Assembly: GCA_017893485.1 (NCBI GenBank)
Contig: CM030360.1
Coordinates: forward strand, 11,272,597 to 11,336,596
Source of the DNA: Hemerocallis citrina
Taxonomy: Eukaryota; Streptophyta; Magnoliopsida; Asparagales; Asphodelaceae
Direction of reading: 5' to 3'
Length of the DNA stretch: 64,000 bases
Shown: piece after piece, positions 3,453 to 49,864 of the stretch
Position numbering within the stretch: the first letter of the stretch is position 1
Layout of the letters: every line of letters begins with the position of its first letter
Notes under the pieces: model-generated
What the model saw: the letters and a program-made list of their open reading frames with translations, nothing else
What the model was told of the DNA's origin: nothing
Database searches by the model: none
Program-made: the position numbers and the translations under genes

Positions 3453-4756
3453 AAAAGCTATCACGTCTGGCTGAAGACTTAAAACTTAGCACTTCTTGGG
3501 AGGCAACCCATGTTTTATTTTACTGCATTTAGGTTTGATTTTTTTTTTCTTTTAGTTTACTTTAATTTTAATTTTTGATTTTATTTTGTAGGATCGCATA
3601 AGTTTTGGAAGTCGCCGGACGGAGATGTTTTCTACACCTACATTGATGTCTGTTTTTTAGCAGGATGGAGTCGGAATCTAAAAAAGTGTTTCAAAGAGAG
3701 ATTGTAGCCAATTGTCTTAGCTACCCAACACAAAAAGAGTCAAGCTATTTGGACACCTACAGCTCCAGATATCGCTGAAATACTTAACGTCGCGCATGCA
3801 GAATTTTAATACGAATCAGGGGAGAAATTCTGAACTTTTTGCATTGTTTTTGTTCTTCCTTTTCCTTTCTCGTTGAGGAGAATGTGATACTCAAGTTTGG
3901 GGGAAGGGATAAAAATTTATTTTTATTTTACATATATATGAAAAGAAAAAAAAAACAAAACAAAAGAAAAAGGGATTTCAATTAGGCTTATCATTACACT
4001 TTTGAGTTCTTTATTGTGCTAAAGCATTGAATTATTTTTTTTAGGATAGAAAATATCGTATAAAGCAAGAGTAAGCATACTTATTTAATTTAGGATTATT
4101 GAATTGCAAAAATCCTTACAAAATTGAAGTCATGTGATTGTATATAAAAGAAACTATAATGCTTTTTCTTGTGATAATTCACTTTGATCTAGTCCTAAAC
4201 AGAGTTTAAGTAAATAGAGTGATAATGATTAAATAATTGATTAAATAAAGTTAATCTACTCCAATGTTTTGAGTTGCTTAGTAACTAGGGGTATTTATCA
4301 CAAATGTTTACTTTTACGTCAAATGGCAACTTGAAATATGAGTATGCAAAGCACTCTAAGTTTGTGACTTGTTGAGTAACCGGGTGAATTCATCGCGTCA
4401 AAAGGCAAGTGACAACTTAGAGAAGAGATTAAAAAGAAAAAAAAGTCTAGTTTGCTATTCGGTTTGAAGTAGTGAGAAGGGGAAAGCACAGATTAAGTTG
4501 TTACATACTATAATTACATTAATTGCATGACAAATATGATTGGGTGAGGAATTATGAATGAATAAATGCACTGGAGAAAGTGAGTATGCTTAGTTTTACT
4601 TTATTTGCTATTGTTTATATTTTTAATTAAAATTTTGATGCTTGCATGATAAGATTTCTTAGTGTGATTAGTTGAGCTTATTATTGATTATTATTATTTT
4701 ATTCATGATTTTACTTTTTGCGTGAGGACAAGCAAAATCTTAAGTTTGGGGGTATT
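3453..4756 (+). mobile_element. Athila-like gypsy 3' internal region, copy 1
   Basis: Non-coding, AT-rich 3' internal region of an Athila-type Ty3/gypsy element. It contains the motif CTTGGGAGGCAACCCATG, typical of this group, near 3498-3516. G-rich purine tracts AGTTTGGGGGAAGG (about 3894) and AGTTTGGGGGTATT (about 4743-4756) follow; the second abuts the LTR start at 4757. The segment is closely similar to 8381-9537, diverging by scattered substitutions and small indels. No open reading frame is recognisable; the coding part that should lie to the left is missing. Confidence 0.7.
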
Positions 4757-6457
4757 TGATGTGTCTATTTTTTATACAAATATTTGTACTCATTTACCCA
4801 TAAAAATTGCTTGTTTTCGTTTATCTTGTTTATAATTTATCTTATTTCCATAGATTTCAGTTAATTAATTATTTTTGAAGCAATAAGATTTTTGATGCAA
4901 AAGGGTGAATATTTTTGGTAAAAATCAACAAACAAAACAAACATATTGATTTATTAATTTTTATTATTTTGTTGAATTTTAAATTTTAAATTTTACAATT
5001 TGGCCGTGTGAAAAGCAAGATAAAAATTTTAATTTGCCAATTGAGATGAAAGTGCAATAAATAATGTTAAAAGGGTTTAAATAGCGAATATGATTTTTAG
5101 ATAGTTTAATTAATTTAAACTAATTATTTTTATTTTTATTTTTAAGTCCTAATTTCTGATTTATTTTGTTTGTATGCAGCACGTGTTTCAAGAAAAAGAA
5201 AGAAGAAAAAGGAAACAAATAAATAAAGAATTGGGGTTTTTCTGCAAAAATAAACCCTAATCTCTACTTACTATGTCTATAAATAGAAGAGCAAACAAGA
5301 GAAGAAGAAAGCGCTGAACGAAGAGTAGCGATGGCTAACCTCTACTTAAAAAAAAATTAAAAAAAGGAAAAAAAGAACAGAGCGTCGCTCTGTCTCTGTG
5401 GGCGCGCGATTTCCAAGCAGAGAGAAGACGGGACATCAGTGAGGAAGAAGAGGGGCGTGGCCAGCTCGGGTGACGTCATCTGCTCAGAGCGGCGAGACCC
5501 AGGGTCAGCTCTGTCTCTGGTGGCGCGTGTCCCAAGGCAGGGTGACGTCAGCAGAATTGACGTAAAGGACAGGCTGAGCTAACGTGGGTGTGCACGTTTT
5601 CCGAGACAAGCAAAGAGATGATCTGACTTGTTTGGGCAGGCAATTCGAGGCATCCCGGTTTACAAATTTTTTAATGAAATTGTTCTTTGTGTATCTCTTT
5701 TCTCTTTGTCTAATTTTATTATGCAATCCAAGACAGTATTTATTAGTTGCAAATTTATTATGAACTAAATTTGTTATTTTAGGGCTTGGATGTAGCCTAG
5801 TTTTCATAACACAAATTTTAATTTCATATTATTTTTCTATTTTTCCATGGTTGTGTTTATTTTCTTTATATCTTAATGCTTACAATTGGTTAACCGACGT
5901 TTGTATGATCTATTAAATCATGGAGAGACCGAACTGGTAATTTGTGATTTTGAATTTATAAAATTAAACACCATTATAAAAGCGAACTGATGTTAATGTG
6001 ACCATTAAGAAATCTATAGATCTTAATGAATTTTCAATCAATTAAATATGTGCATGAACTATGACAAACTGTTAGTTGGAGATATTTTTGGTGTTGTTGG
6101 AGAGAAAGCATTGAATACATAGGGGGTTTTGGTCTAACACTTGGAAAAATAAATTCTTTATTCATATGGAGTTATAAATTGTGTGGGATTAACTAACTGA
6201 AATCAAAAGCCTTAGAATGAATTTTGCAATTAATAAACAAAAAAATTTCACATCCCGCTCTTTTTTAATTCATTTAGTTAAGTCTTTAGATTAATTTAAT
6301 TTAGTCGCTTTCTTTGTTAATTTCGATTTTCCAAATAGTAATACATCTAATAAATTTTGGTACTCAATAAAATAATTAGTCCTTGTGGGTTCGACATACT
6401 TTTCACTTAACTATACTACTTGTTGCGATTTTGTACACTTGCAAATAAATCACATCA
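4757..6457 (+). mobile_element. Athila-like gypsy LTR
   Basis: The LTR begins TGATGTGTCT directly after the polypurine tract and ends near CACATCA at 6457. A primer-binding site TTTGGCGCCATTGTCGGA follows about 5 bp later (about 6463-6480), matching the form usual in Athila elements. At about 1.7 kb the length fits the family. It is flanked by 3' internal sequence on the left and 5' internal sequence on the right, so this one LTR is shared between two element bodies. Short frames inside it (for example 5505-5807 minus) do not resemble proteins. Confidence 0.7.
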
Positions 6458-8380: not shown

Positions 8381-9537
8381 AGCTATCACGTCTGGCTGAA
8401 GACTTAAAACTTAGCACTTCTTGGGAGGCAACCCATGTTTTCTTTTACTGCATTTAGATTTGATTTTTTTTATTTTAGTTTACTTTAATTTTAATTTTTG
8501 ATTTTATTTTGTAGGATTGCATAAGTTTGGAAGTCGCCGGACGGAGCTGTTTTCTACACCTACATTGATGTCTATTTTTTAGCAGGATGGAGTAAACATC
8601 TGGAAAAGTTTTTCAAAGAGAGACTGTAGCCAATTGTCTTGGCTTTCCAGTACAAAAATAATCAGGCCATTTGGACACCTACAGCTCCAGATATCGCTGA
8701 AACATTGAACGTCTCGCCTGCAGAATTTTAATACGAATCAGGGGAGAAATTCTGAACTTTTTGCATTGTTTTTGTTTTTCCTTTTCCTTTCCCATTGAGG
8801 ACAATGTGATATTCAAGTTTGGGGGAAGGGATACAAATTTATTTTTATTTTATATATATTTGAAAAGAAGAACAAAACAAAACAAAAAGGGATTTCAATT
8901 AGGCTTATCATTACACTTTTGAGTTCTTTATTGTGCTAAAGCATTGAATCACTTTTTTAGGATAGAAAATATCCTATAAAGCAAGAGTAAGCATACTTAT
9001 TTACTTTAGGATTATTGAATTTCAAAATTCCTTACAAAATTGTAAAATTCGTGTGATTATACATAAAAGAAAAATGTTATGCATTTTATTGTGATTATCC
9101 TCTTTGATCTATACCTAAAAAAAGTTTATGTAAATAGAGTGACAATGATCGAATAATTGAATAAATAAATTTAATCTACTCCAATGTTTTGAGTTGCTTA
9201 GTAACTTGGGGTATTCATTACAAATGTTTACTTTTACGTCAAACGACAACATAAAATATGAGTATGAAAAGCACTCTAAGTTTGTGAATTGTTGAGTAAC
9301 CGGGTGAATTCATCACAAATATTTGCATTCGCGTTAAAAGGCAACTGACAACTTAGAGAAGATATTTTAAATAATAATAATAAAAAAGAAAAAAGAAAAA
9401 ATCTAGTTTGCTACTCGGTTTGTAGTAATGAGAAGGGGAAATCACAGATGAAGTTGTTACCTACTATAATTACATTAATTGCATGACAAATATGAATGGG
9501 TGTGGAATTATGAATGAATAATTGCTCTGGAGAAAGT
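8381..9537 (+). mobile_element. Athila-like gypsy 3' internal region, copy 2 (cut by copia insertion)
   Basis: Starts AGCTATCACGTCTGGCTG exactly as copy 1 does at 3454, and follows it through the GGGAGGCAACCC motif, the purine tract near 8818-8828 and the AT-rich spacer. It stops at GGAGAAAGT (9537), where the Sirevirus-type copia LTR begins. In copy 1 the same sequence continues as GAGAAAGTGAGTATGC. The copia therefore inserted here, with AAAGT (9533-9537) as the probable left target duplication. No gene. Confidence 0.7.
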
Positions 9538-10926
9538 TGTTGGATCATGTAGGCAAGGCAACAAACACTAGAGGGGGGGTGAATAGTGCTTATAAAAAAT
9601 TAAAATGCGGAATTGAGATTTTTCTTCTGTACAGTCGACTTAAGGGATAAACCAGTCGACTGAATTAACAAAATGAAAAGTAATTTAAATAAGTCTGTGA
9701 AGTCGACTTAGAGATGAGACAGTCGACTTAACATACAAATAAACTTCAGAGTAGTACGAGTCTGACCAGTCGACTTATCTGAGTACTCAGTCAACTGTCC
9801 AGACAAGTTTCACAGTAAGAACACAAACTGAGAAAATAGAAATGCAAGTAGAGAAATACAACCACAGAGTGCACACGATGTATCCTGGTTTGGTCCTTCC
9901 GACCTACATCCAGTCCCCAAGCAACCCACTTGAGATTTCCACTATTCTTGAAAAAGTTTACAAGAATACCCTACGGCTTTCAGACAACAACCTTGTCCAA
10001 CCCGTAGTCCTTTCTCTCAACCAGAGAAAGCAACCAACTCTTTCACCAAGAGTGACAAACCTGACTCTACACCCTAGAGTCCTACTCTCCAACCGAGAGG
10101 AAAAGAAAAACAATAGAAGTTGTTTACAATCAACCTATAGCCTTGTTGTGATTGTGATGTAGTACGTGGCTAATTGGTTGACTTCCTAATCCAGTCCAAA
10201 ACGAAATTCAATGTTATGCTAGACTGAAGACAGAGAACCAAATCTTAGTGAAGTTTGAAAGCTTTTATTACTTGAAAGCACAAAACTTAAAGTTGTTCTT
10301 CAAAAATTGCTTGGAGTGTTAAGTATCTTTTCACAGTGAATTCTATTCTCTATTTATAGAGTTAGAAACACTGGATGTTGGGAAACAGTTGTTCCAACTG
10401 TCAACCAACGGAATAAAAGATTTGAATTTGAAAAAAGTGAGTTTAAAACAGAAAACTATCAAAAGCACATGAACAGTCGACTGGGTTGCCATAATAAGTC
10501 GACTGGTCAGAGTTTGAATAAGATTAGGCAGTTTTGTACAGACTCAGTCGACTGGTATAAGTGGCAGTCGACTGGTACTTAACAGCTAATCTAGTTCAAG
10601 CTGTTTTGACCTTTGGATTTGAAAACACACAGTTAAAAAAAAGTTATATGTGGGTGTATGTGTGTGTGACAAGGCTGTACATCATTCTAAGACTCAATAA
10701 AGAAAAATATTACATTTGCTTACAAGACACAAAAAAATAAATGACATTGAAACATAGGTCTTGACTTGAGTCTTGAGTGAGGCCATTGTCTTTAGCCAGA
10801 GCTGTGCTTGTTCATTTGTTCAGCTTTAGAGAAATGAGGCATTTGTGTATACAACCTACAATTATATATAGTATAGCACAGATACATGTTGCATTGTGTT
10901 GTAATCATCAAAATCAAGAATCAACA
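9538..10926 (-). repeat. 3' LTR of the Sirevirus-type copia
   Basis: On the minus strand the LTR starts TGTTGATTCTTG at 10926, right after the purine tract AAAAAGGGGGAGAA, and ends ATCCAACA at 9538, giving TG..CA ends and 1389 bp. It contains nine perfect AGTCGACT palindromes and a run of short hairpins at 9892-10099. The 5' LTR is lost, so age cannot be estimated from LTR divergence. The plus-strand frame at 9842-10162 is a by-product of the hairpin region, not a gene. Confidence 0.8.
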
Positions 10927-11162
10927 TTCTCCCCCTTTTTGATGATGACAACACAATAGCTGATAATAAAAAATAATACAAGCATTGATATGCTCCCCCT
11001 ATCAATAATACAACATGCATAAATTTTCACAAAAATTAACATCAAAAATCATAATACACAATGTATGTCAGTCGACTTATCACAAAGAGGCAGTCGACTT
11101 GAACACAAACATTACTAATAGAGAGTAGAGTATTATCAGTGTTTTCTCCCCCTTTGTCATCA
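10927..11162 (-). promoter_or_regulatory. Multiple polypurine tracts of the Sirevirus-type element
   Basis: Three purine tracts, seen on the plus strand as C-runs: CTCCCCCTTTTTGATGATG (about 10929-10948, adjacent to the LTR), GCTCCCCCTATC (about 10991-11002) and TTCTCCCCCTTTGTCATC (about 11143-11160). Purine tracts prime plus-strand DNA synthesis during reverse transcription; several of them before the 3' LTR is a known Sirevirus feature. The one touching the LTR is the functional position. Confidence 0.65.
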
Positions 11163-11346
11163 ACAAAAGACACAAATGGGAAGAGAAAAAAATAAGCCAA
11201 GGAGACAACATAGGACATACACAAAAAATAAATAGCAACTGAGTTTTTTAAAACAACTGAGTCTTACAAAATAACTGAGTAACTGAGTCTTACAAAATAA
11301 CAAAACAGTAAAGTGCAGCAAAAAAAATACATAGTAAATAAAAACA

Positions 11347-12393
11347 TCAATCTTTGTCTTCGTCGTCGTCACCTTCGACATCTTGAGACGGAGGTGGAAA
11401 TTGAGAGGTGAACAAATGGGTCAGATGGGAAATTTGGGATTCAAGGGTATCTTGACGATCCATGAGGTAGTTAACAGCATTATAGAGACTGCGTGGATCA
11501 TCAAAATCAGCACGGGGGCGAGAAGAGCTAAAGGCTGAAGATGGTTTAGCAGAAGTGGCTAAAGGAACTTGGGTGTGGGGAGAAGTCCTAGTGGTTGAGC
11601 TAGGTGGAGGATCAAAAAGCTTCATGCGTGCTAAACTTGTACGATCGAAGCATTCATAGTGCTTAACAACATTGGTCTCGGAGTCGAGATCAATATCATA
11701 AGCATAGAAAACACGAGTAAGGAGAGCACCAAAGGGTAGAAAGTGGGAATGAGACTTGTGAATTCTAGGAAAAATGACACGACCCCAATTAACATTGATT
11801 TTACCAAAAATTGCATATACTGCTTGTTGCAATTCCATGGAATACTGATCATAACTCCCTGTTTTAGGGATAATATTATAGGACAGTATCCGTGCAACAA
11901 GTTTTGCAATAGGTGTAATGGATTTATTAGACATAGGGGGTCCATGGTTGGGCAAAAAGATTTTAGACATGATAGATGCATCATCCATTATGATCTCTCC
12001 TAAATCAAGTCCTTCATCATCGATACCCATAATTAGATTAATTCGCTCGGATGTGAGTTTGATCTTCTTATTTTTCACAGAAGAATAAATGATAACTTCT
12101 CCATCATCCGATTGAACTACTCTCATATTGGTATAGAATAGATAAATGAGTTGAGGATAATAATGGGGTTGATTTTCTAAGAATAAAAAATCATAAAGGC
12201 TACAGTTTTGAAAGAGAGATACAAGGTTAAACCTATCAAGATCATTGAAATTGACAAATCTACCAGGAAAAATAATAATGGTACAAATAATATACCATTT
12301 TTCCAAGAGATCAGGACTTCTAAGATATTGTGAGTAGTCCTTAGAGGTAGAACTATCATCTACATGAGAAGTTTTGGATCTTTTTGGTGCCAT
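11347..12393 (-). CDS. Extra Sirevirus ORF downstream of pol ('envelope-like' / putative plant transposon protein)
   Basis: Intact 348-residue frame from ATG (MAPKRSKTSHVDD) to a stop at 11347. It lies about 600 bp after the RNase H stop, the position where Sireviruses carry an extra ORF historically called envelope-like. The core (about residues 25-230, with FPGRFVNFNDLDRFN and INLIMGIDDEG) resembles the 'putative plant transposon protein' family, whose function is unknown. I see no signal peptide or convincing membrane segment, so 'envelope' is not supported. The C-terminus is Ser/Pro-rich, then has a short heptad-like stretch (YLMDRQDTLESQISHLTHLF) and an acidic tail (DVEGDDDEDKD). It is the only fully open frame in this element, while pol is broken. 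The family assignment is from memory of the motif style. Confidence 0.7.
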   Translation of the reverse strand: MAPKRSKTSHVDDSSTSKDYSQYLRSPDLLEKWYIICTIIIFPGRFVNFNDLDRFNLVSLFQNCSLYDFLFLENQPHYYPQLIYLFYTNMRVVQSDDGEVIIYSSVKNKKIKLTSERINLIMGIDDEGLDLGEIIMDDASIMSKIFLPNHGPPMSNKSITPIAKLVARILSYNIIPKTGSYDQYSMELQQAVYAIFGKINVNWGRVIFPRIHKSHSHFLPFGALLTRVFYAYDIDLDSETNVVKHYECFDRTSLARMKLFDPPPSSTTRTSPHTQVPLATSAKPSSAFSSSRPRADFDDPRSLYNAVNYLMDRQDTLESQISHLTHLFTSQFPPPSQDVEGDDDEDKD

Positions 12394-12998
12394 AAAAAGA
12401 GTGAAGGGAAAGAGATTTTACCAACAAAAAACAAGGAATCAAACAGCAAAGGGGGCAAGAAATCAACTTCAAGACAGCAGCTCTTCAGTCGACTTCTTCT
12501 ATATTCTTGCTCTTTCTCTTCAAGGTTTCAGATCTGGTGAAAAATGAAGTGGGTAAAAGTGAAAGGAGGGAGGCAGTGAATTAGGGTTTTCAACAGATGC
12601 GAATGGCTGAGATTGAAAGGGAATGAAATCGATGGCCCAAAAAGAAGTCAAGGGCGAGTCAAAGGATAAAAAGTTATCTCAAAATCTGTGCGACGATTCG
12701 AAGTTGAAGACAGACTGATTCGCGATAGTCGACTGTTATTAAGGCACAGCCGACTTAGTCGAGAGAAAAATAAATAATTATCACAACTGATCAGTCGACT
12801 TGTTGAAATCTCAGTCGACTGTTCAGAGAAGAAAATAAGTATAGAAAAAGATACGTGGAAGTCGACTGAACAACATATACAAGTCGACTTACAAAAAAAA
12901 TATTTTCAACAAATATCAAGAAAATCACATATCCCTAGTTCTCTTCTTAAAGTAATAAAGGTGTCTTCTTTAAGGGGTTTGGTAAAGATATCAGCTAC

Positions 12999-15977
12999 TT
13001 ATCTATCAGTAAAGATAAAGTCTAAAGAGATGTCTCCTTTTAAAACATGATCACGTAGAAAATGATGTCGAATATCAATATGTTTCGTACGTGAATATTG
13101 AACCGGATTTTTAGATAAGTTAATTGCACTGGTATTATCACACATTATTGAAGGTCTTTCAAAAGAAATACCATAATCTAATAGGGTTTGCTTCATCCAC
13201 AAAATTTGTGCACATGTCAAACTTGCAGCGATATATTCAGCTTCTGTAGTAGATAGGGATACCGAATTTTGCTTTTTACTGCACCAAGAAACTAGTGAAT
13301 GTCCCAAAAAGTGACATGTCCCACTAGTGCTCTTGCGATCAGTTTTACTACCAGCAAAATCAGCATCACTGTACGACAAAAGTTAGAAATTATCAGTACA
13401 TGGATAGAATAAACCATAATCAGATGTGCCTTTAATATATCTTAAAATTTGTTTCACAGCTTTCAAATGAGATTCTTTAGGACTAGACTGATATCTAGCA
13501 CACAAACATACAATGAACATAATATCTGGTCTACTAGCAGTTATATATAAGAGTGAGCCAATCATACCTCGATAGAGTTTCTGATCGACACTCTTGCCTA
13601 ATATATCTTTGTCAAGGGTAGTGGTAGTAGCCATAGGTGTGGATTTACTACTTGTGCTATCCATGTTAAACCGTTTGAGTAATTCCTTTGCATATTTTCC
13701 TTGATTAATAAATATGCCATTTGGAGACTGCTTAATTTGTAGTCCAAGAAAATAATTGAGTTCACCGATATGACTCATCTCAAACTCGTTTTTCATGGTG
13801 TTAGCAAACTCTTGACATAGATTATTATTAGTAGAGCCAAAAATTATATCATCAACATATATTTGTATGATTAAAATATCATTCTTAATTCTCTTAATAA
13901 ATAAAGTAGTATCTACTTTACCTATCTCAAAACCTGTTTCTAAAAGAAAAGTTTTCAATCGATCATACCAAGCACGCGGTGCTTGTTTAAGACCGTATAA
14001 AGCCTTTTTCAATTTAAAAACATGGTTTGGGAATTGTTCATATTCAAAACCTGGTGGTTGTTTAACATAAACATTCTCTTTTATAAACCCATTAAGAAAT
14101 GCACTTTTCACATCCATTTGATAAAGTATAAAATTCATAAAACAAGCAAAAGATAATAAAATAAGAATTGATTCTAATCTAGCAACAGGAGCATATGTTT
14201 CATCAAAATTTATGCCTTCTTCTTGATTATATCCTTGAGCAACTAGTCTAGCTTTGTTCCTAACAACTTGTCCTGATTCATCTAACTTATTTTTGAATAC
14301 CCATTTAGTACCAATAATAGTATGATCAGGAGGTCGTGGAACTAAATCCCATACATCATTTCTTATGAATTGGTTTAATTCATCTTCCATGGCATTCATC
14401 CAAAATTCATTCTCACATGCTTCTTGTATATTTTTCGGTTCAAAATCTGACAAGAAAGCCGTGTGAGATATCATATTAATATGTGATCGTGTCTGAATAC
14501 CATGAGAGATGTCACCAATTATTAAGTCATGAGGATGATCTCTAACTTCAACAAAAGATTTTGGTAAAGTTGGAGATATCACAATAGGATCAGTCGCCTT
14601 GACAAGATCCTCAGTCGACTGGTTTACATCAGTCGACTTGATGTCCTTATCGGTCGACTTATCCGTGAGACTAGTTTGTTCTAAAGATGTAATTACTTTA
14701 TTTAAAGGTGATGAATCAGTTTCATTATCTTTAATTAAATTTTATGAAGGCAGAGATTCATCGAATGTAACATGCATTGATTCTTCAATAGTCATTGTTG
14801 ACTTGTTGAAAATTCTATATGCTTTACTCCTATTTGAGTATCCTATAAAGATACACTCATTAGATCTAGGATCAAATTTATCTAAATTATCTTTAGTGTT
14901 CAGAATAAAACACTTACAACCAAATGTCTTAAAGTAAGAGACTTTAGGAATTTTGTTAAAAAATAACTCATAACAAGTCTTCTTTAGCTTAGGTCTTATT
15001 AAAATCCTGTTTAAAACATAACAAGATGTAGCAACAGCTTCAGCCCAAAAATACTTAGGTAAATTGCTTTCAACAAACATGGTACGTGCGTATTCTTGCA
15101 AAATCCTATTTTTCCTTTCAACCACTCTATTTTGTGGTGAAGCCCTAGGAAATGCAAATGAATGTGTTATACCATTCTTGTTGCAATATTATGTAAATGT
15201 TTCATTTTCAAATTCTCCACCATGATCACTTCTAATAGTGACTATGGTTAGAGATCTTTGGTTTTGAATTCGTTTACAAAAATTTGCAAATTCATCAAAA
15301 GCATCATTTTTATGTTTTAAGAAGAAGGTCCAAGTGAATCGTGAAAAACCATCTACTAAAACAAATACATATCTACTTTTATTTAAACAAGCAACTCTAG
15401 TAGGGCCAAATAAATCCATATGAATTAATTCGAGCGGCCTACTAGTAGAAATTACTTCTTTTGTCTTAAAAGTATATTTGATTTGTTTACCTAGTTGACA
15501 TGCATCACATAACTTATTATTTTTAAATGATAGTCTTGGCAGTCCTTTAACTAGGTTATACTTAGATACTTTAGAAAGATTTTTTATATTCACATGACCA
15601 AATCGTCTATGCCAAAGCCAAGAGTCATTATTAGAAGCTATTAAGCAAAAATCATTTGAAAACTCATTTGTATTCAAACATAATTCATAAATATTGTTTT
15701 TTCGAAAACCTTGAAAAATAATGTTTTGCATAGAGGAATCATAAATTAAACAAGCATCTTTTTCAAACACAATTTTATAACATTTATCACATAGTTGACT
15801 AATGCTTAACAGGTTATGCTTAAGTCCACTAACTAATAAAACATTTTCTATAGAAGGGTTAGTGTTTTTACCGACCATGCCGATTCCTATGACTTTTCCT
15901 TTATTGTTATCACCAAAAGTAACTGTTCCTCCATTGATGCTTTGTATGGTTGATAGGAGGTTGGCATGACCAGTCAT
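12999..15977 (-). pseudogene. Copia pol: integrase, reverse transcriptase, RNase H (Sirevirus type), interrupted
   Basis: Minus-strand pol in several frames. At 15977-15189: GAG-pre-integrase zinc-binding region (WHRRFGHVN, CDACQLGKQ) then the integrase core (IHMDLFGPTR, RSDHGGEFENE). At 15125-14742: the rest of the integrase (MVERKNRILQEYART). At 14582-13383: RT with [23 protein letters not shown] fingers, [11 protein letters not shown] and the catalytic YVDDIIFGS. At 13379-12999: RNase H (YSDADFAGSKTDRKSTSG, LSTTEAEYIAAS). Stops near 15188, 14741-14583 and 13382 break the polyprotein. Two perfect AGTCGACT motifs plus variants lie in the non-conserved linker at 14592-14659. Confidence 0.85.
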
Positions 15978-16078
15978 ATGCTTAGAACATCCGATGTCAA
16001 GTATCCAACGATCTTTCTTTGGTACCTATAAAATATTTAATGTGAAAATGGTACCCTTTTCATTGGGTCCAAAAACTA

Positions 16079-16840
16079 TTAGTTTGTGGGAAACCAAACC
16101 CATAATGAGTTTGATTTTCCTCCATAAGAAGGAATAAAATTAGCAGAATTACATACATTCAACATATATGAGTTTATATAAGCAGTTCTATCATTCAAAC
16201 TCAAGTTGACTGGAACCCATACAAGTTTGCTCTGTCCAGTCGACTTTATAACACCTTTCAGTCGACTTCTATTGTATGTCAGTCGACTGGATGATAATAT
16301 AGGTCGACTTATATGAGGTTTTGGTCTTGTTGAATAAGACTCAGTACCTTTGGACAGACGACTGGTGGATGGATACAGTCGATTTGGCTGAACTTTATAT
16401 TTTCTTTTATCAATAGAACTTACAAGCTTAGGCTTTTCAAAGAACTCATACAGTTTATGTTTAACACTAGAAATAGATTCAGGTTTATTTATACTAGTGT
16501 TTTTAGAAGAAAGATCCTTTACAAGAGATTTTTTAAAACCAAGTCCAAACTTTTGACTAGATTTTACTTGATTTTGAAGAACATCGTTTAAATTCTCTTT
16601 TCCTTTATTGAACTTAGATACATTCTTGGATATCTCTTCATAATTCTTCTTTAGAGATTCAAGATCCATATCTAAACTTGAAATACGAGAATTTAAAGAT
16701 TTTACTTCTTTATCAAGGTTAAGATTCTCTTGAGAAAGTGTTTGATTAACTTTCTCTAGGTTCTTAACTCTAATCTTTTCCTTTTTCAATTCTTGAAAAT
16801 TTTCATTAACTGCACTAATAGTATGAAAGCATTGACTCAA
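16079..16840 (-). pseudogene. C-terminal part of Sirevirus-type gag, truncated
   Basis: A 253-residue open frame whose first part is a strong coiled coil (Lys/Glu/Leu-rich heptads, about residues 14-75), then a Lys/Ser/Arg-rich basic region, ending near the conserved sequence before protease. The GAG core and zinc knuckle normally found upstream are missing because the element stops at about 16842. The initiator Met is therefore internal. The basic region is encoded across three perfect AGTCGACT motifs and several one-mismatch variants (16238-16385), which appear as repeated Ser-Arg-Leu or Lys-Ser-Thr. Confidence 0.65.
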
Positions 16841-16921
16841 AGAAAAAATAGACTATTTACTTTTTTGGGGTCTCAGTACGCAGTAAGTCAAACAGTAAGA
16901 TGTGTGGAACAAGAACTATAC

Positions 16922-17097
16922 CTGAATGTGGAGAAAAGTTTTGGCATGAGCAGCAAGAATCTGATATCTCGGATGCTTAATGCACCAATGATCTTTCTAT
17001 TAGGCGCATCTACGACAGGAAGTCCACCTATTTGATTGTCTTTCATGCGTTCGAATGCTTCAAAAATTTGCTCATCACTTCTATCTGATAACCACAT
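16922..17097 (-). pseudogene. CBS-domain exon fragment (SnRK1/AMPK gamma-like) carried in CACTA
   Basis: A minus-strand exon encodes DEQIFEAFERMKDNQIGGLPVVDAP, then a Ser-Ile-Arg-Asp-Ile-Arg motif and LLLMPKLFSTFR, ending at a good donor (CAG|GTATAG at 16922/16921). The pattern 'IGGLPVV...I.IRDIR.LLL.P.LFS.FR' is that of the CBS domains in plant SNF4/AMPK gamma-like proteins, which sense adenine nucleotides for SnRK1 kinases. Only this one exon is recognisable. It lies downstream of a GC-rich leader exon within CACTA sequence, so I read it as a captured fragment; a decayed host gene is the alternative. Confidence 0.6.
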
Positions 17098-17468
17098 ATA
17101 AAATTATCAAACCTCAGTAATCAAATAAACTAACTATTATACACAGAAATTATGAATATTGGAGGATTTTCTCATTAACATTACCACTTTTACAAGGAAA
17201 AATGCATTGATGATGCAACTCATGAGGTTAAACCAAACATCCTCACTTAATATGTAAAAAAAACTTAAAATATAAATTTGGCTACTATAGATTGACTTCT
17301 ATGAAGTCCATTACCAACTGCTCAGAACTCATCACTAATCTCTTCATGATTGGCATGTAAACAACAAAAAAACACATATTTGTGAAAACTCTTGGATTAA
17401 ATCAAAGATATACACAAGTTTTCAGTAAATTGATAGACGAAACCCTAAATTTGGGGATAAAAACTCAC

Positions 17469-29655: not shown

Positions 29656-30705
29656 ATATCGGTTAAAAGTCAGGTTTAAAGAAACTAGTTAACTGGAAAA
29701 CAAACATCTGCATAAAGAACAGTGATTACTTTTATTTTTTGTGCAACACAGAAGTAATTACAATTGAGACTTGAGAGCCCCTAATTTCCATCTAGAAAAC
29801 AAACATCTGCATAAAAAATAGTAATTTTTTTGCAAGGCCAGGAGCCATACTCCAAACGAAAAATAAAGAAAATCAGGACAACTCCATGAGATTCCATGAG
29901 ATGCCCTGTAATAAGCTAAAGAAGCACAACTCCAAATGAAAAATCAAGGAATTAGTAAGTACAATGAGGAGAAAATACAATGAGTATGTGGGATAAGAAC
30001 AATTCCATGGTATTTTTCTGCACCATGAAAATAGGTACATCAGTTAATGATACATTATAACCAAAAATAGTAGAGTCGATCAGTGCAAATAGGACACTGC
30101 AGCTAATTTACCATTCAGGTGCACAACTAGAAGAATAATTAACATAATATTATAAAGAAAAAAGTTGATAAACTTTGATGACTATATGAGACATTAACAT
30201 GAAGAAACAAAATGTGAGAAAATCTTTCCTTTAGTAGTTTACTTTGATTCATAACTCAAAATCCATCCAAAATAACAAAAAGAATGTTAAAACAAATGGC
30301 CCTCCATGCTATCACCTCACATTACATCTATAAATAAACCATATGATGATCAACCAAGTCTTCAAAAGAAAGCGGGCTTCCATCAACCCAGAATGAAAAG
30401 ATCAATAATCATCATCCAATTGTTCAAAGATATATTCATCCACCTCATCGTCACCTTAATATAAAAAAATTAATAAAATTATATTTGTGCAAATAATCAA
30501 AAATTCGTGCAAGTGGTGTAAGTGTGTAAGATTATTTGAATCTCATCATACCTAGAATTGTTGGTATAAGAGTCACATATTCATCCTCCGTTCTAGCATC
30601 TTCATTGACCAAATCATTAGAAAATAGTTCTACTTTGGATGCTACAAATTAACACACAATAGAGATAATTAGATACTGATTAATAAATATATGCAAAAAA
30701 GAGGG

Positions 30706-31538
30706 TGTGGTAGGGTAAAAATGGCATGGGGCCCAACCAGGGCCCAGTACAGCTCTCATGGCTTGGGGCCCAACCAGGGCCCAGTACAGCTTTCACTCAG
30801 AAACAGGAAAAACAAACAATCTGCCTCGGCTTCGAGCCACGACGGGGTCGGCGCCGAACCTCAAAGCTCACCCCCGCAGAACTGACCTCCTCGTATCCAA
30901 CGAGCATCGATGGCCCTCGGCCTCCGACCCACGACAGCCCTCCGGGCCGTCCGCCCATCCTAGTGTAGAATGAAGATGACCTGGCACAGCCTAGGCCCTC
31001 AGATCCTCCCGGGAACACAGGAGCCCCATGATCTGCCATGTCAGCCCCAAATACCACCCAGGGGCTTTGCCACGTCAGCCCTATACCACTCCTGGTATTG
31101 CCACGTCAGCCCTAAACCCCCTGGGCCTTCTGCCACGTCAGGCCCATGGGCTTTTCGGATTTAGACCCGGCCCCCAAGCGGATCCAAACCCAGTTGGATT
31201 CTCTATAAATACTAGTCCCTCCCCCACCTTTTTAGGTAATCAATCTTTTGCCACTTAAATTCTCCTAGTTATTGCTACTCTCTCACAGAGACTGACTAGA
31301 TCGTCGGAGGGTCCGCCACCGGGATAAACCCCGGTGTTTCTGGACCGTCTGCAGGTACACAAGACCTCGGATCCGAACCCCCTGATCCGAGCCGAGACAT
31401 CCACCTCATTCCGAGCCCGTCGTAGGTACCGCCCGGTCACCCGAGGGTCGTCTGACAAGCAGCATTCTCCTTCAATACAAATCGAGTCCGAACTCACACC
31501 TGGTGCATCCACACGTCTCCCAAAAACAAACCGCATCA
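30706..31538 (+). repeat. 5' LTR of Tat gypsy
   Basis: 833 bp, starting TGTGGTAGGG and ending CGCATCA. It contains a tandem GGGGCCCAACCAGGGCCCAG unit (two copies), several GCCACGTCAG motifs at 31061-31141, and a TATA box TATAAATA at 31204-31211 that would start plus-strand transcription of gag-pol. Confidence 0.9.
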
Positions 31539-31618
31539 GGTTGGCGCCGGCTGTGGGAACACTGCTTCAGAAGCCGACCCGAGCCCGACCATCAAGGGAC
31601 CTCGACAACCGAACTTTC

Positions 31619-41573: not shown

Positions 41574-42625
41574 GCTCGAGGTTCAGACTGGCACCATGAT
41601 TCTCTTCTCCGGAAGACACACCGGCTCGCCATCACCCTTACCAACCCATAATCCCTCGCCAGCTCGAGGTCCGGTCTGGCACCTGGGTACTCTTCTCAGG
41701 AAGAAGCAACAGCTCGCCACCCCCCTTGCCGACACATAATCCCTCGTCAACTCGAGGTTCGGTCTGGCACCAGGGTTATCTTCTCCGGAAGACACACCGG
41801 CTCGCCATCACCCTTACCGACCCATAATCCCTCGCCAGCTCGAGGTCCGGTCTGGCACCTGGGTACTCTTCTCAAGAAGAAGCAATGGCTTGCCACCCCC
41901 CTTGCCGACACATAATCCCTCGTCATCTCGAGGTTCGGTCTGGCACCAGGGTTATCTTCTCCGGAAGACACACCGGCTCGCCATCACCCTTACCGACCCA
42001 TAATCCCTTGCCAGCTCGAGGTCCAGCCTGGCACCTGGGTACTCTTCTCAGGAAGAAGCAACGGCTCGCCACCCCCCTTGCCGACACATAATCCCTCGTC
42101 ATCTCGAGGTTCGGTCTGGCACCAGGGTTCTCTTCTCCGGAAGACACACCGGCTCGCCATCACCCTTACCGACCCATAATCCCTCGCCAGCTCGAGGTCC
42201 GGTCTGGCACCTGGGTACTCTTCTCAGGAAGAAGCAACGGCTCGCCACCCCCCTTGCCGACACATAATCCCTCGTCCTCTCGAGGTTCGGTCTGGCACCA
42301 GGGTTATCTTCTCCGGAAGACACACCGGCTCGCCATCACCCTTACCGACCCATAATCCCTCGCCAGCTCGAGGTCCGGTCTGGCACCTGGGTACTCTTCT
42401 CAGGAAGAAGCAACGGCTCGCCATCACCCTCGCCGGCTCGAGGTCCGCTCTAACATCAGGGCAACCAACCCTCGTCGGCTCGAGGTTCGCTCTAATCATC
42501 AGGGCAATCTTCTCCGAAAGACTCAACGGCACGCCGTCACCCTCGCCGGCTCGAGGTCCGCTCTAAACATCAGGGCAACCAACCCTCGCCGACTCGAGGT
42601 TCACTCCGACATCGGGGCAACCCCC
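41574..42625. repeat. 176-bp higher-order tandem repeat in Tat gypsy 3' region
   Basis: Nearly identical 176-bp units repeat from about 41574 to 42420. Each is a pair of diverged 88-bp monomers: one begins CTCGAGGTTCGGTCTGGCAC, the other CTCGAGGTCCGGTCTGGCAC. The first has GGAAGACACACCGGCTCGCC and the second GGAAGAAGCAACGGCTCGCC. About 4.8 dimers are present, followed by degenerate shortened monomers to about 42625. Open minus-strand frames across the array are a by-product of the repeat. Tandem repeats before the 3' LTR are common in Tat/Ogre elements. Confidence 0.85.
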
Positions 42626-42719
42626 TCATGAAGGCCCAGCTACTCGCTATCCCATTTTTTACAAACATAAACACTCCTCCACGGATAGCTCCCGCACCCC
42701 CGCAGGAGTGGGGGGCTTG

Positions 42720-43553
42720 TGTGGTAGGGTAAAAATGGCATGGGGCCCAACCAGGGCCCAGTACAGCTCTCATGGCTTGGGGCCCAACCAGGGCCCAGTA
42801 CAGCTCTCACTCAGAAATAGGAAAAACAAACAATCTGCCTCGGCTTCGAGCCACGACGGGGTCGGCGCCGAACCTCAAAGCTCACCCCCGCAGAACTGAC
42901 CTCCTCGTATCCAACGAGCATCGATGGCCCTCGGCCTCCGACCCACGACAGCCCTCCGGGCCGTCCGCCTATCCTGGTGTAGAATGAAGATGACCTGGCA
43001 CAGCCTAGGCCCTCAGATCCTCCCGGGAACACAGGAGCCCCATGATCTGCCATGTCAGCCCCAAATACCACCCAGGGGCTTTGCCACGTCAGCCCTATAC
43101 CACTCCTGGTATTGCCACGTCAGCCCTAAACCCCCTGGGCCTTCTGCCACGTCAGGCCCATGGGCTTTTCGGATTTAGACCCGGCCCCCAAGAGGATCCA
43201 AACCCAGTTGGAATTCTCTATAAATACTAGTCCCTCCCCCACCTTTTCAGGTAATCAATCTTTTGCCACTTAAATTCTCCTAGTTATTGCTACTCTCTCA
43301 CAGAGACTGACTAGATCGTCGGAGGGTCCGCCACCGGGATAAACCCCGGTGTTTCTGGACCGTCTGCAGGTACACAAGACCTCGGATCCGAACCCCCTGA
43401 TCCGAGCCGAGACATCCACCTCATTCCGAGCCCGTCGTAGGTACCGCCCGGTCACCCGAGGGTCGTCTGACAAGCAACATTCTCCTTCAATACAAATCGA
43501 GTCCGAACTCACACCTGGTGCATCCACACGTCTCCCAAAAACAAACCGCATCA
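42720..43553 (+). repeat. 3' LTR of Tat gypsy
   Basis: 834 bp, same ends as the 5' LTR, preceded by the polypurine tract GGAGTGGGGGGCTTG. TATA box at 43219-43226. By eye, 7 substitutions and one 1-bp indel against the 5' LTR, i.e. about 0.8-1% divergence. Confidence 0.9.
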
Positions 43554-46390
43554 GGGGGCGAGTATTGCAAATACCTCCATCCTCTGCTCGTAGCCAATCA
43601 TGAGTTAATATCAAGGCTTCAATTGTTTCCTTCTTCATTCGGCTTCTATGACAACGGATCACACGACCACTAGTGCTAAAGGTGGATTCAGAAGCTACTG
43701 TGGAAACCGGAACAGCAAAAACATCTTTTGCAATCCTTGCAAGTATAGGATACTTTCCTATATTCCCTCTCCACCAAGCTAATATATCAAAATTTTCCAT
43801 TGTAGAATCATCCCACATAAGAACACCCTCCTCCATATATATGTCTAAATCCGTCTTCGTAGGCAAGCTTTGACAACTATGAATATATTGATTAAATCTA
43901 CTCTTTCTCTTTTCACCAACACTTTCAACTCTTCGTGAAGAATTGCTTGAGCCAACTCCTTGTGGTATAGATTGACTTTTCTCATGAGAATTTTGCGAAT
44001 ATTCACCATGAAGTTCCTTGATTAAGTTGACAATATTTTCTAACCGCCTTGCACCATCAAAACCATATATCTCTTCATAATACAACTTAATGGCAACTAA
44101 TTTATATCTTGGGTCAAGAAAAGTTGCAACGGTAAAAAGCTTGTTAGCTTTCAACCAATACTTCATGAACTTCTTCATCGCAGTTGCCATTCTCACAATT
44201 TTAGTATCTGGACTTCTCTCCCATTCATTTAGAAGTAATAAAACTTCACAAAATTCCTCGAAAAGAAGATTAGCAGTACAATAATCGGAACCGGAAATAA
44301 GCTTAGTTAGATCACTAAAATGCTTCAAGCAATTACTCAAGGTATCAATATAATTCCATTCATCTCCCGATGGGCAAGAATTGTATTTGTTGTCTTTGAG
44401 ACGGAATTTACTAAAGACTTGCTTATATTCTAGTGCAACACTTAACATATCATAAGTGGAATTCCATCTTGTGCAAACATCAAGGAAAACATGTCTTCCA
44501 TTCATACCAAGTTGTTTAGCAATATCATAGAAACTTTCTTGCACTTGTGGTGACATTGTAATATATTTAATACTTTTCCTCACATTATGAATAGCTTCGG
44601 AGATTTGCTTCAAACCATCTTGGACAACAAGATTAATAATATGTGCGGCACATCTCACATGAAAAAAAAACCCTTGCAAGGAAGTGTATCCAAAATGCGA
44701 TCCTTTGCCAAAGAGATAGCAACATCATTAGCCGTGTCATTATCAACGGTAACGGTAAAAATCTTACTATCAATATTCCATTGAAGCATGCACGACATAA
44801 AAACATCACAAATAATAATTCCCGTACCCCCTCTAACTTTAATAAAACCGACAACCCTCCGTTGCAAATTCCAATTAGCATCAATGAAATGAGAAGTAAC
44901 ACACAAGTATGACTTTTGTTGTGAAGATGCGGTCCACTTATCCATTGTGAAACTTATCCTACTTGTATGCGAGGAAAATGTGTCCAACAGCTTCTTCTTG
45001 TAATCAACATAGACATTCATACACAATTCCGTGATTGTATTGCGAGAAGGAACTGTGTTCGGGACGAAGAGATTGCAAATAATCCAAAAACCTTCTATGT
45101 GTCACTATATTGAATGGGTATTCATGAGCAATAATTGCTTGTGCAAGTTTATAACGACTTTTCTCATTGTCAAATTGAAAATTTTCTAGGCTACAAGTTC
45201 CATCATCTTTCTTGGAGGATGCTCGTATCAACATTTGGCGTATATCGGCTCTCGGTTTCTTTGAACATGTTGTTATATGGTTCCTTAGGTGTGTAGTTTC
45301 AAGTCTACTATCCGCATTAGTTTTGAAATGACAATGTATGCACTCGGCTTTTTTGCGTTTTGTCACTATCTCTTTCCCACCTACCATTTCTTTTACATCC
45401 TCATCATATTTTACAAAATCTTTCCACACCTCCGATCTACTTCTTGGTGATTTTCGTATTTGAGCATTTGAGTTACTTGATGATTCTGTATTAATGGGTT
45501 GGGTGATAGATTGTTCATTAGGAGAAGACATGATGAACACTATTTTGAACCTATGAAAAAAAATAACATATAAATATATAATATATAATTAATCACTTTG
45601 CACCTATGAATATGCAGCAACTTAAATACTTAAACTACCAAAATACAGTGAATAATATATTGAAAAATAGAGTGAGAAAGAGATTTATACCGTCTCTTCA
45701 ACAAAGTGCGACTCCGACGGCAGCTAGGGGGACAGGGGGAGGCACGACAGGACCGGGATGAAGGCTGCTGCCGTCGACTCTGGCTGCGGGAGAGGAAGGG
45801 GGGAAGAGGCGGGAGCGTGGCTGGCGATGGGGCGTGACGGCGAGGCACTGGCGACTGGCGTGGCTGGCGACGGGGCGCTGGCGACGGGGCTCGCGACGGA
45901 GCGCTGGCGACGGGGCTCGCAACGGGGCGTGGCGACGGGGCGTTGCCGCGCTGGCGACTGGCATGGCTGGCGACGGGGAACGCGAGGTCGATGTGGAGTT
46001 GGGGATGGGGACTGGGTTATTGCCTTATTGGGGATGGGAATTGGGGACGGGGGAGAAGAGGAAGACGGGGGAGAAGAGGAAGGGTCGATTTGGGATTTTG
46101 GATCTGGTGAATACGGGATTTAGCTGATTAGGGTTTAAGTTTACTCATATAACTATTAAATATATATATTAAATAAATAAATATTAAATTAAGCGTATAT
46201 CCGTATCCGAATCCGCTTTTTTAGGAATATCCGTATCCGTATCCGAATCTGAATTTTTTTGGATTTGGATATCCGAATCCGTATCCGTATCCGTATCCGT
46301 CCGGATACGGATTTTTCATATCCGTATCCGCCAAAAATCGGATTCGGATGCGGATCGAATCGGATATATCCTTATCCGAAAGCACCCCTA

Positions 46391-49005: not shown

Positions 49006-49864
49006 AGGGATCTTAACTATATAATTACTCACTGGATCTATAGAAGATTAAAGATCTTAATCAGACAGTAACAAATCACAATTTAAGCTCCTTTTCTGCT
49101 TGCTTAATATTTAGTTTCTATAATCACTCAAAATATTATACAACATTTTTAATAGCTTCTTGTTATGCTATTCTGCTTTGTAATAAAGATAGGTGCAACT
49201 TTTCTGGAAAATCCTTACTTGTTGTCGTGACAGTAGAAGTTTAGTGAATAGGTTAAAACTGTACATAGCTCAAAGCTACATATTTATTTTGAGGAAGGCA
49301 GGAAGCAGATAGCAAAGCTTTTTAAAATTTTAAAAAATATTGATCTAAAAATACTGCAGTCATCATTTAGAATGTATGCATTTATTCCCATGCCTAAAGC
49401 ATATTATGGTTTCTTGTCACAATAGATGACACTAGAAATCATATGTAGTAGCAACACTGAAGATCTTAAGAAGGAATAATGATTTGCCGGCATTCATATT
49501 TCAATTAGGGAAAAATTTGCTTAAACAAACTTCATGATTTTACCCCCTTAAAGTTTCAAAATTTAGTACCACATTGAAAGGACGACATAATGCAAATATA
49601 TACGAAGCGAACTGCCAAGTACTCATAATAATTCCATTGGTAATGTAAATACAAACAATAATCTCTGTTGTAAGGGAAATGAAGCATCACATAATAACAT
49701 GATTCAAACCAAACCAAAACAAATAATTTGAGCAGTTAGAAAAGATGCCAAAAGGAATAATCTTAAAGCTGAAACCCCACCATAACTCAACAGGTAATAA
49801 GACCAAAAAGAAAAGAAAAAAAACGTATCAACTCGTTTATAAAAGAGCATATTAAGCCTTACTT

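Follow-up and report, generated by a model that had tools for sequence, protein, structure and literature searches.

Palindromes paired two helical turns apart recur in four retrotransposon lineages of Hemerocallis citrina and may form the site of one DNA-binding factor

A window of 64,000 bp from Hemerocallis citrina (the whole stretch of DNA analyzed here; contig CM030360.1, positions 11,272,597 to 11,336,596) contains a truncated copy of a Sirevirus, a copia retrotransposon, in which the palindromic octamer AGTCGACT recurs many times, and the question that this locus raises is what the octamers are for. A preliminary description, made from the letters alone, had listed 22 exact copies, nearly all with a partner 18-22 bp away. 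We found that all 22 listed starts are exact copies of AGTCGACT, that the 64 kb hold no further exact copy, and that the one-mismatch partners named there are all present, with the spacing of 18-22 bp confirmed and with dissimilar spacers. In 100 dinucleotide shuffles of the window the octamer occurred 0.58 times on average and 3 times at most; together with the whole-genome control counts given below, this rules out a chance origin. The doublet is a single dyad-symmetric site carried by four retrotransposon lineages and, judging from its sequence patterns, we favor with moderate confidence the reading that it is a cooperative site for one DNA-binding factor common to these unrelated lineages.

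Doublets were counted in the genome assembly (3,775,421,867 bases in 701 contigs) and measured in 20 loci of 10 kb each, a non-random sample in that each locus was picked for a listed doublet within the initial 3 Mb of contig C1; the short, overlapping loci L001-L004 were excluded from statistics. Genome-wide, 224,687 pairs of AGTCGACT were separated by a gap of 0-30 bp, compared to 76 for the reversed control. The gap was 12-14 bp, corresponding to a spacing of 20-22 bp, in 204,136 of these pairs (91%; reversed control 4) and exactly 13 bp in 70,258 (reversed control 3). The 200 kb of sampled loci held 310 octamers; an AT repeat came second among palindromic octamers, with 144 copies. Among the 128 neighbor distances of at most 30 bp in these loci, 126 fell at 18-22 bp (18 bp once, 19 bp 4 times, 20 bp 45 times, 21 bp 62 times and 22 bp 14 times), with one each at 25 and 29 bp. 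Furthermore, in the loci and the window combined, 318 of 332 exact octamers had, 17-24 bp away, a partner carrying no more than one mismatch, compared to 34 of 5,730 random positions. Thus, the doublet is the unit. The proposal that it spans about two helical turns with non-homologous spacers was supported: neighbor distances in other copies peak at 20-22 bp, both genome-wide and in the sampled loci, and the spacers proved non-homologous. An ordinary tandem repeat was rejected, as repeat families align chiefly via the octamers. The further suggestion of a link to 21-nt small interfering RNAs was not supported; spacers vary between doublets, so no single 21-mer would be expected to match them. 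Five IMG/VR contigs carried one doublet each, showed no detectable relation to these elements and were taken as chance.

We examined the surroundings of the octamers, with similar spacers reduced to a single doublet (or gap) in the tests of spacers, flanks, covariation and centre distances. On the outward sides of 65 doublets with dissimilar spacers, G was found at position +1 in 104 of 130 ends, C at +4 in 69, G at +6 in 80 and A at +7 in 63; on the inner side, G at +1 was present in 86 of 130 and the +4/+6 signal was absent. Genome-wide, the outward tail GnnCnGA occurred at 49,792 and 49,828 ends, together 99,620 of 408,272 doublet ends (24%; the ends being twice the 204,136 pairs), compared to an expectation of about 0.2% from flank composition and about 1% given the conserved G at +1. 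With this symmetric outward tail on both ends, the doublet makes up a single site with dyad symmetry, some 43 bp long: TCnGnnC-AGTCGACT-N(12-14)-AGTCGACT-GnnCnGA. The doublets are in turn spaced from one another: of 50 non-redundant distances between doublet centres, 23 lay at 65-71 bp, 16 at 74.5-81 bp and 11 elsewhere, with none at 71-74.5 bp, and the two preferred classes differ by about one helical turn.

A site of this symmetry could act as RNA or single-stranded DNA, the two palindromes pairing into a hairpin with a loop of 12-14 nt that serves small-RNA production, packaging or dimerisation, as has been put forward for the palindromes of maize Sireviruses. Any two copies of the octamer are complementary and the outer tail extends the potential stem; moreover, these maize palindromes are hotspots of small-RNA mapping (PMC5311732). 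We looked at pairing across the doublet. It exceeded expectation at +10 (29 vs 19.0, z 2.8) and +12 (26 vs 18.0, z 2.3), with 19 positions tried, and slightly at +1, +4 and +6 (z 1.6, 0.7 and 1.2); the excess at +10 and +12 speaks for a hairpin. However, the free outer positions gave 11 vs 18.4 at +2, 21 vs 18.2 at +3 and 18 vs 17.6 at +5, and the inner positions 29 vs 32.4 at +1 and 10 vs 19.3 at +2. Since covariation was not detected beside the octamers, and since a hairpin needs neither the strict gap of 12-14 bp nor two preferred distances one turn apart, we rejected an RNA hairpin as the explanation and regard it as quite improbable.

The preliminary description had treated the doublets as a property of a Sirevirus-type element. 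The window element is indeed a Sirevirus, but the doublets extend to two gypsy lineages and another copia. In searches with the window proteins (tblastn), L005, L009 and L021 proved to hold close relatives of the Sirevirus; L013, L015 and L016 gave distant matches only. Gypsy-type Pfam domains were present in L007, L008, L010, L012, L013, L014, L016, L018, L019, L020 and L022, and L015 encoded a copia gag-pol unlike that of Sirevirus. Reverse transcriptase (RT) identity was 86-91% within Sirevirus and 41-46% between L015 and Sirevirus. Among the gypsy elements, the lineage that we call gypsy A (L010, L014, L019) had RT identities of 97-98%; in gypsy B, the RTs of L012 and L007 were 96% and 84% identical to that of L022, and 36-38% identical to gypsy A. 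One gypsy B copy, L022, carried a chromodomain, at 25.4 bits against a curated cut-off of 25.1. Three additional small loci comprised a gypsy B relative (L025, RT 84% identical to L022), a gypsy B-like fragment (L026) and one unassigned locus (L027). Thus, doublets are found in four lineages: two are copia, namely Sirevirus and one other, and two are gypsy. In L008 (922-2883) and L017 (3685-5646; long terminal repeats, LTRs, about 4.9 kb apart), very doublet-rich gypsy elements have a gag open reading frame (ORF) and no detected pol; they are apparently non-autonomous and have retained the code. In L023, a doublet array at 585-902, probably a gypsy B LTR remnant, lies upstream of a GH3-family ORF (4909-5880), at a distance of about 4 kb.

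The outward tail was present in each lineage. C at +4 together with G at +6 occurred on outer and inner sides, respectively, in 19 and 1 of 58 ends in Sirevirus, 21 and 3 of 50 in gypsy A, 16 and 3 of 38 in gypsy B, and 4 and 0 of 10 in the L015 copia; the swapped control gave 0/58, 0/50, 4/38 and 1/10 on the outer side. L007, L013, L016 and L027, which are mixed or unassigned, were excluded from these figures, and L006, whose left half is gypsy A and right half gypsy B, was kept apart from them (9/20 outer ends and 1/20 inner). Beyond the doublets, no similarity between the lineages was detectable. When the octamers were masked, none of 60 cross-lineage segment pairs matched (blastn, E 0.01), and even two LTR types of gypsy B had nothing detectable in common. 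Similarity remained within lineages; with octamers unmasked, 51 of the 60 pairs matched, with a best E of 7e-11.

Doublets also lie within coding sequence. Fifty-seven octamers, counting one in L016 and counting the near-identical L008/L017 and L010/L014 separately, fell in open frames, where 43 translate as (K/Q/E)ST, 10 as SRL and 4 as VD. All three codon phases were thus in use, which argues that the DNA and not the protein is selected; a repeat at the protein level was rejected on the same ground. In L014, a single gypsy ORF holds doublets near the gag N-terminus and at the gag/protease, protease/RT and RNase H/integrase junctions, the last with a 20-bp spacing and a change of phase; in gypsy B copies L012 and L022, doublets are confined to the LTRs. 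The (K/Q/E)ST heptad was found in none of the 120 gag relatives listed among 293 matches; the alignments of most of these 120 cover roughly half of the query, and a broader pattern matched 1 of them (shuffled mean 0.64). Since a different palindrome would encode different residues, this is no more than a hint that the coding sites are restricted to the elements of this host.

These results bear on common descent or exchange, by which one array would have moved between lineages and its spacers would since have diverged. The recurrence, in several lineages, of doublets about 67 or 78 bp from one another, and the few cross-lineage spacer pairs that reach 75% identity (4 of 2,116, L006 excluded), would fit such a transfer. 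Nevertheless, nothing detectable is shared once the octamers are masked, the doublets sit at non-homologous places, four of them within one gypsy ORF, and none of the 120 listed gag relatives (of 293) has the strict coding signature. We consider this explanation extremely unlikely.

We infer from these patterns independent gains, protein binding, one shared reader, host encoding and a benefit to the element. The two palindromes would face the same side of the helix at a distance of two turns, weaker contacts being confined to the outer sides, and one sequence-specific protein would bind the doublet cooperatively as a dimer of dimers; the strict two-turn spacing, the dyad tail and the free codon phase all point to a protein that binds double-stranded DNA as a dimer pair. 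The cooperative dimeric protein of the preliminary description thus appears to be the best model for the doublets. Four unrelated lineages of LTR retrotransposons would have independently gained and kept doublet arrays, some of them in linkers between protein domains, and the same protein would read all four, as suggested by the word, spacing and tail that they share. This factor is probably encoded by the host, the most economical assumption given that the scanned ORFs of the lineages had no domain outside gag-pol, and no extra protein, in common. Binding would benefit the element through promoter activation or open chromatin, since the sites have been kept and re-gained. We are less confident of any particular function of the doublet than of the common-factor model: promoter activation would fit the array that precedes the Sirevirus ORF3 and the LTR doublets upstream of a TATA box, and the sites in coding linkers would better fit a chromatin effect along the whole element.

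A different source for the factor would be one of the lineages themselves, with a protein resembling VANC and a binding code copied by parasitizing lineages. Sites spread over whole elements, including coding sequence, suit element-wide anti-silencing, and VANC uses many short motifs (PMC5735166, PMC10398659); furthermore, one lineage, Sirevirus, has an extra ORF, ORF3, whose 348-aa product had been put forward as the partner of the doublets. As a general partner this ORF had to be abandoned: of 20 loci, just two Sirevirus loci contained it (tblastn, E 1e-4), in a search that a diverged form could escape and on loci cut at 10 kb. VANC motifs are, moreover, tandem repeats in non-coding DNA, unlike the doublets here, and a shared extra protein was not seen among the scanned ORFs. 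We therefore judge a lineage-encoded factor unlikely.

Several observations weigh against our preferred reading of one host factor. The doublet units appear helically phased, but this is suggestive only: 45 gaps of 30-110 bp exceeded 2,000 of 2,000 jittered sets in periodicity at 10, 10.5 and 11 bp, in a test that also rewards clustering and that shared ancestry within families may inflate, and the best period of those tried was 11.0 bp, not 10.5 bp. In one gypsy B subset the tail is weaker, with C+4 and G+6 in 10 of 28 ends and the swapped control in 4 of 28, and the L015 copia lineage consists of one locus with five doublets. Gypsy elements that we take to be Tat-type, on account of the RVT_3 domain in L016, lack doublets both in L016 and in the window (RT near 34.2 kb), and other window elements lack them as well, which means that not every element needs the factor; L016 contains one isolated octamer, within an integrase-like stretch and taken as chance, and a third Tat-type element is only partly visible at the end of L021. 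Host origin rests on the failure to see a common extra ORF among the selected ORFs of at least 150 aa that were scanned. Protein binding of the doublet is itself something we infer from sequence, and promoter use would leave the coding-linker sites unexplained. Finally, the conservation of the octamer is supportive rather than clean, since the alignments were partly seeded by the motif: it was unchanged in 81% of cases at both 60-70 and 70-80% alignment identity and in 83% at 80-90%, compared to 10, 24 and 39% in the three classes for 8-mers of other sequence and 9, 24 and 40% for those containing CG, and above 90% identity its advantage shrank (90 vs 63%, then 96 vs 93%).

Conservation also bears on who benefits from the sites. 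If host silencing machinery read them, they could persist by linkage, or because silenced copies are those seen, and the very large number of doublets, spread over several lineages, would be in keeping with this. However, selection on the elements should purge silencing sites, and yet they are found in coding linkers and kept better than other 8-mers. We hold this explanation to be improbable. A bolder version of this reading, in which a single trans-acting factor licenses the retrotransposons of both superfamilies, is in our opinion possible but doubtful. Copia and gypsy lineages would have converged on the doublet, some of them with copies dispersed along the element and embedded in coding linkers, and the factor would keep the elements accessible. 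If true, it would describe a shared commons of anti-silencing or activation rather than a family-specific system, and convergence on one code would show the retrotransposons of one host coming to depend on a common protein. The explicit grammar of palindrome, 20-22 bp and outward tail, with its approximately 200,000 occurrences, makes the role of Sirevirus palindromes directly testable.

Within the window, the doublets are distributed over a truncated Sirevirus copy on the minus strand, in which the gag C-terminus, integrase, RT, ORF3 and the 3' LTR follow in that order. The C-terminal part of gag (16079-16840) was assigned by position and coiled-coil character, with only weak coiled-coil matches in Pfam. 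The integrase part of pol (15189-15977; Pfam gag_pre-integrs and rve) lies 5' of the RT part (13383-14582; PF07727, E 4e-77), which is the copia order. ORF3, of 348 aa and in the envelope position, spans 11347-12393 (PF20167, E 6e-16); two relatives were found, the better one from Asparagus officinalis with 39% identity over 69% of the query, and its AlphaFold model (mean pLDDT 46) was too poor for use. The 3' LTR, TG...CA, is about 1.39 kb long (9538-10926, minus strand). Its ends were read by eye from the AGGGGGAG-AA/TG junction, in place of the usual AT/TG, and from the CA end, with a different repeat starting at 9537. Three copies of the polypurine tract AGGGGGAG precede the LTR (by eye), and an inverted repeat around the junction (10893-10957; arms 10893-10913 and 10937-10957, 95% complementary) flanks it; multiple tracts and such a repeat are Sirevirus traits. 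A TATA-like box, TATAAATA, was placed by eye at 10351-10358 on the minus strand. A blastn search of the window found no second copy of the LTR, and by eye the element is 5'-truncated near 16,850, gag running directly into unrelated sequence.

In this LTR, three doublets (9633/9654, 9701/9721 and 9768/9789, the octamer at 9789 with one mismatch; 9633-9796) lie downstream of the TATA box and two (10475/10497 and 10546/10566; 10475-10573) upstream of it. One doublet (11070/11092; 11070-11099) lies downstream of ORF3 and three (12727/12748, 12793/12813 and 12860/12882; 12727-12889) upstream. The octamer at 12487-12494 is isolated, its best partner within 17-24 bp having 5 mismatches. The linker between integrase and RT holds four sites (14592-14659), of which those at 14592 and 14652 have one mismatch and the two exact ones translate as K/Q-S-T. 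The basic part of gag holds six (16238-16384): 16238, 16260 and 16281 are exact and translate as S-R-L or K-S-T, and 16302, 16356 and 16377 have one mismatch. The arrays at 9633-9796 and 12727-12889, with units 67-68 bp and 66-67 bp apart, both repeat three doublets every 66-68 bp despite unrelated spacers.

At 16850-17450 the gag end is joined to what appear by eye to be exons of a CBS-domain gene on the same strand, and the truncated element may sit within a host gene or at its border. A direct repeat of 1.15 kb, 88% identical, occupies 3456-4581 and 8381-9537, and the Sirevirus LTR ends, as read by eye, where its second copy starts. An ORF at 43270-44679 resembles by eye the C-terminal part of a hAT transposase. 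Elsewhere, a direct repeat at 30705-31540 and 42719-43555 (99% identical) probably represents the LTRs of a GC-rich gypsy element without doublets, to which tandem repeats at 41574-42620 are internal.

How do the doublets compare with known systems? In the heat-response elements of ONSEN LTRs a retrotransposon likewise exploits the site of a host factor, but they are known from one family and from the LTR only, and we know of no two-turn doublet grammar for ONSEN. In 2016, Bousios and colleagues reportedly described a palindrome-rich region in the LTRs of maize Sireviruses; the doublets here likewise include palindromes in Sirevirus LTRs, but hairpin pairing is unsupported beside the octamers and sites extend beyond the LTRs. 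The comparison with VANDAL anti-silencing, drawn in the preliminary description, holds in one respect. VANC targets are many short motifs per transposon, with density important for VANC, and the motifs form tandem repeats in the non-coding DNA of particular VANDAL DNA transposons (PMC5735166, PMC10398659). Binding at VANC targets leads to a loss of DNA methylation. Many short sites per element are found here as well; the tandem repetition and the restriction to non-coding DNA are not, as the sequences between partners are unrelated, some sites fall in coding DNA and the code is common to unrelated retrotransposons.

The closest resemblance is to the palindromic repeated motifs (RMs) that Bousios et al. 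(2010) described in 13 Sireviruses, in the LTRs and upstream of the envelope gene (PMC2829016). According to that paper, RMs share a CGG-CCG core in all Sireviruses but one, the exception being Tnd-1, and are called Sirevirus-specific, with their role left open. Bordering a CpG island is a further trait of RM boxes. The window boxes have RM-like placement, plus one doublet downstream of ORF3, and like RM boxes they are perfect palindromes of high copy number with divergent flanks; by position and symmetry they are of the Sirevirus RM kind, and the single box is thus of a known kind. The Vitis RM, CGGTCGACCG, has the GTCGAC core in common with the doublet octamer, and the Osr10/Osr8 RMs, CGGTC(T/A)GACCG, resemble GGTCNGA, the common form of the outer tail. 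A literature search of titles and abstract starts, with most subscription journals outside its coverage, returned no doublet grammar, coding copies or sharing between copia and gypsy. Unlike RM boxes, AGTCGACT is without the CGG-CCG core. Its copies form doublets, at a spacing of 20-22 bp and with a tail directed outward, a grammar that would set them apart from RM boxes unless these are paired too. Moreover, the doublets are not confined to LTRs and linkers as RM boxes are, but occur in gag and pol coding sequence and are carried by gypsy and non-Sirevirus copia elements as well.

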